A DNA stretch of 64,000 nt from Pelecanus crispus (Eukaryota; Chordata; Aves; Pelecaniformes; Pelecanidae): assembly GCF_030463565.1 (NCBI RefSeq), contig NC_134644.1:131933388-131997387 (forward strand). The letters are read 5' to 3'. Position 1 is the stretch's first letter; every line of letters starts with the position of its first letter. Position numbers and translations under genes: made by a program. The notes beneath the pieces were generated by a model. That model searched no databases, was not told where the DNA came from, and was given only the letters and a program-made list of their open reading frames with translations. This document shows, piece after piece, positions 23,701 to 26,700 of the stretch.

Positions 23701-26700
23701 CTTAAAACACTTGGATGGGATCACCTGCAGGTGCAGCAGAACCAAATACAGGAAAGTGATGATAACTTAATATTAGTCTAACTTCCTGTTGCCAGCTAAT
23801 GAAATTGCAGTGAAACATTGAGAGTGCTTTCTGTAAAAATATTGACTACTTGATATTCCTCTACTCATCAAACACTCTGGTAAAATACCAGCTCATCTAA
23901 ATGCTTCTGAGTAATTTCTGAGCAAGATAAATGGTAGTTTCTACTGTGTTAAATTTGGTAGGCTATGATCCATTCTATAAATATTTTCTAAATTTCACTT
24001 AGCTTCTGGTATTTCCTGGCTAAGTTTTTATTTCTATGATTATGTACTGCTCTTGTATCATCTCTCTTGTGCTGTGTTGGGTGTTTTTTTTAAAACTCGA
24101 TTATCTGTGGCTGATCACATTGTACTGAAAAATGTTTATCTTTAACAAAGGAGAAGAGGAAATTTCTATTTGACAGCATTTAAGCTGTCAGGCTCCTGCC
24201 AAGATTGACGCAGGGAGGATTTCCTCACTTACGCAGACAGCCTTAACCCTGTCCACTACTTGAGCTGAGAGGGAGGATTGCCATGGTGGTAGATATACGA
24301 CTGCCAAAAGCTAAAGCTTCGCAGCTTTGCGACAGCAGCTGAGCCTTCCCAGTCTTGGCTGTGTGGCTTCCCTTCTTGGTTTGTAAATGCAGTGGTTCTG
24401 CTCTTGGTGGAACCTCTGCTCCTGCAACGCAAGGGCAGGTCTTTCCCCGCTGAGGAACTGTAGCTTCAGGTCTACCATGACCTACAAAACTGAAGTAGTC
24501 ACTCGCTGCACAACAGCAGATTATAGATGTGACTTGTATCTGGTGGCTGCAGAAGAACACCTTCCTCCTGAAACGGCCTTTTTGTGGTCAGGTGGCATTG
24601 CAGTTCACGTTAACCTGTGCATTTGTTCCCTTTTTTGTTTGCAGTGATCGCTATTGATATTGATCCTGAGAAACTCAGTCTTGCGCGCAACAATGCTGAG
24701 GTGTACGGCGTGGCGGATCAGATAGAATTTGTGTGTGGAGACTTCATGGTGCTGGCAGCCGACCTGCAAGCAGACGTCGTGTTCCTCAGCCCACCCTGGG
24801 GGGGACCTGACTACGCCACTGCCGAGATCTTCGATATCCAAACCATGATTTGCCCAGATGGATATCCTTTCAAAGTTACACATTGTTATGATTTTCAGTC
24901 ATTTACGAGTGGTTTTCTCTCTTTCTCCTCCCTCTCTTGACATGGGCTTTGCATGTCCAGTTAGCTCACTGGGGATGATATGACCAGCAGCTGAAGTCCC
25001 AGATGTGCTGCATGGGTTTAGTCCTCCTCCCCCAACCTCAACTATATGACTTTGACCACCTAAAATTGAATATTTGTATTATAATTTTTTTATTTAAAAA
25101 AAAAAGTCATAAAGAGTTATTCTTAAAAGGAAAAAATCCTCTAGAGAATTGTAGTACTTTCTTAACTTAAGGGATTAATTCAGCAGTTTTAACTCCTTTA
25201 TATTATTTGATTAAAATACCCTGAAGTAATCAAGTAGCCATGTGATGTGTGTATATATAAGTAACGATTACATGTTACATGAGCCATGACTTTGTTATTA
25301 ATTCCACTCTTTAATTGATTTATAAGAAGTATATCTTATTTAAAATATCTTACTCAAACTATTCTCAATCATAGCACCTGCCTATGACTTGGGAAATCAC
25401 AGAAGAGTGCAAGCAAGATATTAACCCTTTTAATTAATGTATAAAATTCCATACTAACTTATTAACAGTGGTATTGAGCACTCGTTCATCTGGGAAGGTA
25501 GTAGCATAATAGTTTCATCAAATATGAAGTGTGGTGGGTTTTCTTCCCCCCACATAATCTCAGTTGTTTCCTTTTTGGCTAAAATGTAGCCATATTTGTA
25601 AGAATAAGGAAATCCTTGTGTGCACGTGTGAGAGAGATTCCACAAAATGAATTGGAAAACAGATATCAAACCAATGTACTAGCTATAAACTACATCCAAA
25701 TTTCTCAAATACTTCTCTGTAGTTCAGTTAAATTTTCTTAAAAAGTGTGTGTGTGGGGGTGTTTTACTTTCTAGGGCAATAACGGTGAAATAGAGTTTCT
25801 GCATTTAGACAGTACTAATCTCTGCATTTCAGAAGAGTATCTGACTTACACACCCGGAAGACTAACTATAATTTAATTGCATAATAACTGAATTTGGGAC
25901 ATAATTTTAAAATGAATTAATATAAAGTAACTTCTCCTTCCCTATTCTTGTTTTTTCCTTTACTGACTTCTACATTTGAAATTTTCAGGCTCTCTAAGAA
26001 GATCACCAACAATATTGTGTATTTTCTACCTCGGAATGCTGACATTGACCAGGTGTGTTACTCGATTAGGGCTTGGTAATTACAAAAAGCTCAGCTGTCT
26101 TAAAACATAGGCATTATAAGCACAAACTTAAGACTTTCAAGTCTGTGCAGCTGAATGTGGGCAGGTTTTTTGTTTTAAGTTTGAACCTTATGTTAAGTGA
26201 TTTCTGTGTTTGCAGTACTTTTGCTGTATTTAGAAATGGGAGTAGTAGATTATTTCCATGTTTTCAATACTGTTCCTTTATAAAGCAACAGATTGGAGGT
26301 TCTTATAGAAGGTCCAAAGCCAGTAGATTTCTTGAGTGCCAGACCAATAAAAAGTTTTTAACCAGCTCATACTATCTGATAAGTCGCTGAGTCCTAAACT
26401 TTCATGGCTTTCAGTTTGTGAAGGAGTTGCAGGAAGTCACTGTACAGCCTACAATCACTACTATCACTGATTAGTAGATCGGAGACAAATGTCATGCCAC
26501 CAGTGGTGGTACTGATACTGTCCACACAAGTGTCAGTTCCATATGGGCTGCTTGCATTGCAGTGATTAGATAGTTAGATGCATCACTGACTTGATAAACA
26601 CACAATTTGTTTCCCTGGTGTGGGGTTTTTTTCTATTAGAGATTTTTGTTAGAATTTTTTTTAAGTAATGAGATGACTGTAACAATTCCCCTGAGTGTCT

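Follow-up and report, generated by a model that had tools for sequence, protein, structure and literature searches.

Integrator genes with minor introns (INTS4, INTS7, INTS8, and INTS10) have been described in PMC9881141, and in these genes, as in TGS1, a step of snRNA maturation is encoded with a minor intron, which gives the same kind of circle. The two cases differ in that Integrator acts at snRNA 3′ end formation and TGS1 at the cap, and in that retention has been shown for INTS7 and INTS10, whereas it is predicted for TGS1. U11-48K and U11/U12-65K are also comparable with TGS1, as the activity of the minor spliceosome is tied to a gene that it needs, but 48K and 65K, as outlined in PMC5473595, form a negative feedback via U11 on a conserved enhancer, whereas a TGS1 loop would be positive and would act via retention. 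Unlike 48K and 65K, the TGS1 region (plus strand, positions 9001-37600 of the window, which is the whole stretch of 64,000 nucleotides analysed here) is without a tandem U12 donor. The donor at 24862 is the sole RTATCCTT on this strand of the region, and a U11-binding tandem donor was rejected as a candidate. Tandem U12-type donors that serve as a U11-binding enhancer are the hallmark of the 48K/65K circuit. In the autoregulation of CENATAC and SRSF10, minor splicing sets the level of a splicing-related protein, as is proposed for TGS1 (PMC8280824, PMC7244321). CENATAC uses competing minor and major sites (PMC8280824), whereas TGS1 has a single minor donor and weak-looking cryptic GT-AG pairs.

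The MIDB contains 770 human minor introns, ~22% of which are AT-AC, as given in PMC6717393. The TGS1 intron has the same termini, donor, and branch type as this human AT-AC subset, with no difference in kind; within the U12-type AT-AC class it is unremarkable. In the accessible text of the open-licence literature, TGS1 was not found named as a minor-intron gene; MIDB, U12DB, IAOD, and supplements may well list it. What is new here is that the donor of the intron was read from proteins predicted on unspliced contigs of relatives.

The gene in the window is bird-like. It contains an RNA cap guanine-N2 methyltransferase domain (PF09445 in Pfam, E 5.6e-27) and the motif SPPWGGP, and the joined frame aligns with human TGS1 (3egi_A, 3gdh_A) along all 98 residues with 0 gaps (E 3.7e-54). 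By this domain together with SPPWGGP, the gene is, judged from its sequence, a TGS1 orthologue. When joined, the four exons in Table 1 form a single open frame with a terminal stop. The introns on either side of the AT-AC intron (23303-24644 and 26053-37404) both have GT...AG ends; the latter, next in TGS1, is a major-class GT...CAG intron of ~11.4 kb. We take the label of intron 11, given to the AT-AC intron in the original prediction, to be compatible with a 13-exon gene as in human. Elsewhere in the window, a GC-rich stretch at ~8156-9340 contains repeated RLGSPRVSSGLLGS-like frames and is perhaps a promoter region with a tandem repeat. Frames at 9579-9974 (+), 12264-12488 (-), 43609-44055 (+), and 46079-46894 (+) presumably resemble pieces of bird CR1-type LINEs.

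Table 1 Features of the TGS1 minor intron and its neighbouring exons, in window positions
Feature	Position	Strand	Remarks
TGS1 upstream exon	23159..23302	+	Donor GTAAGT, major-class; start placed by eye at an AG
TGS1 exon bearing motif IV at its end	24645..24861	+	Phase-2 end, split codon GG/A
U12-type AT-AC intron, 1112 nt	24862..25973	+	Donor, branch motif, AC end, protein-restoring join
U12-type 5′ splice site ATATCCTTT	24862..24870	+	9/9 bases of RTATCCTTT
In-frame TGA upon intron retention	24938..24940	+	1112 nt upstream of next junction (after 26052)
Branch-site motif TTCCTTTAC	25955..25963	+	1 mismatch to TTCCTTRAY
3′ splice site CTAC	25970..25973	+	AC end
TGS1 exon (A)TTT GAA ATT TTC AGG CTC	25974..26052	+	Donor GTGTGT
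Last TGS1 coding exon, with stop	37405..37521	+	Acceptor TCAG

The original prediction described a U12-type AT-AC intron within the methyltransferase domain of TGS1, with a U12 donor and a branch site 11 nt from its end. Its coordinates and motifs are confirmed, and its class and its place in the domain are supported by the splice signals and by the protein-restoring join. The branch A at 25962 lies 11 nt before the last intron base, and both spacing and motif are those of a U12-type branch site, which is usually about 10-16 nt from the intron 3′ end. RTATCCTTT occurs twice in the 64-kb window, both strands taken together, with 1.2 occurrences expected (~1e-5 per position and strand), and a branch match (at most 1 mismatch, 8-20 nt upstream) is found at 19 of the 3106 plus-strand AC sites, the intron's own included. 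Taken singly, neither the donor nor the branch motif is rare in 64 kb. The reading of these motifs as chance matches was rejected because both of them sit exactly at boundaries that are fixed by the protein. A search of the window with 4227 RNA families returned none at its gathering score.

To define the junction, donor/acceptor pairs were enumerated with the last exon base at 24820-24899 and the first exon base at 25900-26009. Excision of the AT-AC intron joins PDG to FEIF as in human TGS1 (3egi, 3gdh). The conserved protein is obtained from three pairs (AT-AC, TA-CA, and AT-AT), which represent one mRNA at shifts 0/+1/+2; the 20 pairs of GT-AG or GC-AG type in these ranges all fail to yield it. 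The claim that only this splice choice restores the conserved protein is therefore true when its two equivalent shifts are counted with it. Seven of the 20 pairs (four GT and three GC) maintain an open reading frame, each at the cost of lost conserved residues or added intron-coded residues: the pair 24874/25999 yields PDGYPFK-KITNN, and the pair 24884/25928 keeps FEIFRLSKK with 23 residues inserted. These frame-keeping pairs, which the original prediction did not include, could plausibly be used as cryptic junctions should minor splicing fail.

Many database proteins were called from unspliced contigs, with translations that enter the TGS1 intron and reveal its donor. Two protein searches, from which 120 of 162 and 120 of 763 passing matches were listed, gave 196 distinct records, and each record was classified by alignment to the exon end, using translated tails and not the DNA of the relatives. 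Because the split codon is in phase 2, a donor xTATCCTTN reads YP[F/L] and a donor GTRAGT reads an immediate stop; a YP tail stands for TAY CCN only, as the first intron base is invisible in translation. The 196 listed records comprise 94 YP-type tails, 51 exon read-ons, 29 immediate stops, 11 Y[D/G/S/A/E] tails, and 11 others. Among the matches listed, the third residue of the YP tails is F in 46, L in 42, S in 4, C in 1, and Y in 1. A YP[F/L/S/C/Y] tail, which fits xTATCC, is thus found in 94 of the 145 listed records without exon read-on, and the 51 that continue into the exon are either spliced or without an intron at the site. A pattern-only classification of the same 196 records gave 96 U12-like tails and 30 stops; the aligned version, used here, drops P0113 and P0119 from the former and P0137 from the latter.

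Tetrapod-like records account for 37 of those listed: 33 are YP-type and three spliced; the remaining record, P0062, diverges after FEIF and is perhaps a processed copy without the intron. Among the matches listed, the YP type therefore makes up 33 of the 34 unspliced tetrapod-like records and all 33 in which the intron is visible. Named YP-type records come from a primate (Saguinus, P0041), a bird (Limosa, P0008), a fish (Boleophthalmus, P0032), and a mollusc (Dreissena, P0168); Limosa is the nearest named relative, with 97% over the exon, which makes a bird the likely source of the window. At the 3′ end of the intron, Thr precedes FEIF in 4/4 records (P0055 and P0197-P0199, the latter being the only three proteins found by the 3′-end search), and the fish-like P0055 reads through an entire intron, in frame and counted at 117 nt. 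Thr at this position fits an AC end, since an AG end would give Arg or Ser. The tails suggest that the AT-AC, or at least U12-type, status of the site is old. P0001 is 96% identical to the query and has CPDGFEIFR within a stretch of four exons, which occupy ~14 kb of the window. Its contig is at most 1681 nt, so it reads as a cDNA, and it appears to show the correctly joined product in a close relative.

The 29 immediate stops and most of the 11 Y[D/G/S/A/E] tails are best explained by major-class donors of the GTRAGT or GTATG type. A few records in the group of 11 others may also be major-class, and some immediate stops could come from gene models terminating with the exon. About 40 listed relatives thus look major-class, and none of them is tetrapod-like. 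As to the intron class of orthologues, the original prediction stands among the tetrapod-like records listed, where 0 of the 34 unspliced ones read as major-class, and does not extend to these others. The major-class-looking records indicate that the intron class probably changed in other lineages, and they are evidence against a universal need for a minor intron at this site. The pattern agrees with the model of one-way minor-to-major conversion set out in PMC7367187.

Contig scans for relatives of the TGS1 site found none among viral contigs and one locus among genome contigs (L001:2503-3974), in a bin filed as a Euryarchaeota MAG. This locus carries a TGS1-like protein in pieces, with the exon continuing through the intron site; its opposite strand carries what we take to be a frataxin-like frame. 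The contig looks like that of a mis-binned small eukaryote. Among the database records, those of Saguinus, Limosa, and Dreissena extend into the minor intron, and that of Boleophthalmus is without the start of the next exon. Some public TGS1 records appear to be cut or bent at the intron, presumably because annotation expects GT-AG.

We are nearly certain that this is a genuine, old U12-type AT-AC intron, which would give TGS1 a slow and permissive dependence on the minor spliceosome and not a tuned feedback switch. With the class read from the sequence, U11 and U12 would bind ATATCCTTT and TTCCTTTAC, and the minor spliceosome would excise the intron. The intron was probably minor-class in the bilaterian ancestor, because tetrapod-like, fish, and mollusc records share a U12-type donor at this site, and elsewhere it would have been lost or turned major-class. 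With weak minor splicing, the intron would be kept, translation would stop after 25 intron-coded residues, and TGS1 would drop. The retention product agrees with the earlier claim of a truncation after motif IV, as the TGA in Table 1 follows these 25 residues and removes the end of the methyltransferase domain. An exon junction lies downstream of this TGA, so NMD is predicted if the retained transcript is exported. Basal retention of AT-AN introns is relatively high, and 92% of them respond to CENATAC loss, as reported in PMC8280824; the TGS1 intron should respond likewise. TGS1 would then depend formally, in a slow and permissive manner, on the very spliceosome for which it caps U11, U12, and U4atac.

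Major-class donors read ATAAGT (in AT-AC introns) or GTRAGT. Such a donor at the exon end was rejected, as the donor is ATATCCTTT and none of the enumerated GT-AG or GC-AG pairs restores the protein. That a major-class AT-AC or GT-AG intron has been mistaken for a minor one is hardly credible: major-class AT-AC introns do exist (PMC8280824), and four frame-keeping GT-AG pairs are close by, but each of these pairs loses conserved residues or gains intron-coded ones, the donor is the full U12 consensus and not ATAAGT-like, and the U12-type tail is conserved among the listed relatives. The chances are slightly better than even that the intron is a neutral relic, kept by descent alone and without a regulatory role, and that its link with capping through TGS1 is coincidental, one case in several hundred minor-intron genes. 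A survey of >3000 genomes (PMC10639083) concludes that neutral processes may account for a large part of how minor introns evolve, and the major-class introns apparent at the site in ~40 listed relatives point the same way. The U12-type donor in 33 of 33 listed intron-showing tetrapod-like records, together with a fish and a mollusc record, argues against such a relic. This argument is qualified by the resistance of AT-AC introns to conversion, which PMC7367187 reports and relates to their poor recognition by the major spliceosome.

A self-reinforcing loop in working order, in which minor splicing sets TGS1 via retention and TGS1 sets the maturation of U11, U12, and U4atac, seems unlikely to us. 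It would fit with the U12-type status kept at the site in tetrapod-like, fish, and mollusc records among the matches listed, with the high basal retention and 92% CENATAC response of A-type minor introns (PMC8280824), with cap trimethylation favouring TOE1 trimming of snRNAs (PMC10801842), and with RNU4ATAC patient cells, in which INTS7 and INTS10 retention is found with less protein and 3′-extended snRNAs (PMC9881141). In addition, 2271 introns are retained in hypomorphic fly tgs1 testis (PMC7605716), which indicates that strong TGS1 loss can harm splicing. On the other side, the same source reports that TMG caps are long-lived, that fly tgs1 knock-out larvae have near-normal TMG and nearly normal splicing, and that TGS1 knock-down has no effect on proliferation in cultured mammalian cells; the missing tandem U12 donor in the TGS1 region also speaks against a loop. 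Loss of TGS1 in mouse is lethal, and splicing was not examined in the work cited by PMC7605716. Sm-class snRNAs receive their TMG cap from TGS1, and this cap aids 3′ trimming (PMC10801842), which bears out the earlier statement that TGS1 acts on snRNA caps; the dependence would extend beyond the minor snRNAs to other Sm-class snRNAs. Of the dependence loop in the original prediction, the formal dependence holds, and strong feedback is unlikely in light of published fly, yeast, and mammalian-cell data. In our judgement, the dependence between TGS1 and the minor spliceosome exists on paper, is weak in its practical effect, and is not confined to the minor snRNAs. It is quite improbable, in our view, that the intron has persisted since early bilaterians on account of a coupling of TGS1 supply to minor-spliceosome activity, such that falling minor splicing deepens itself; less minor splicing would then mean less TMG capping and less 3′ trimming of U11, U12, and U4atac.

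The TGS1 intron has a practical side, as some public TGS1 protein records appear faulty at this intron. If the coupling just described were true, it would help explain how modest snRNA defects grow large in RNU4ATAC or SMN disease. Beside the Integrator case, the TGS1 intron is a clear meeting point of minor splicing and snRNP maturation.
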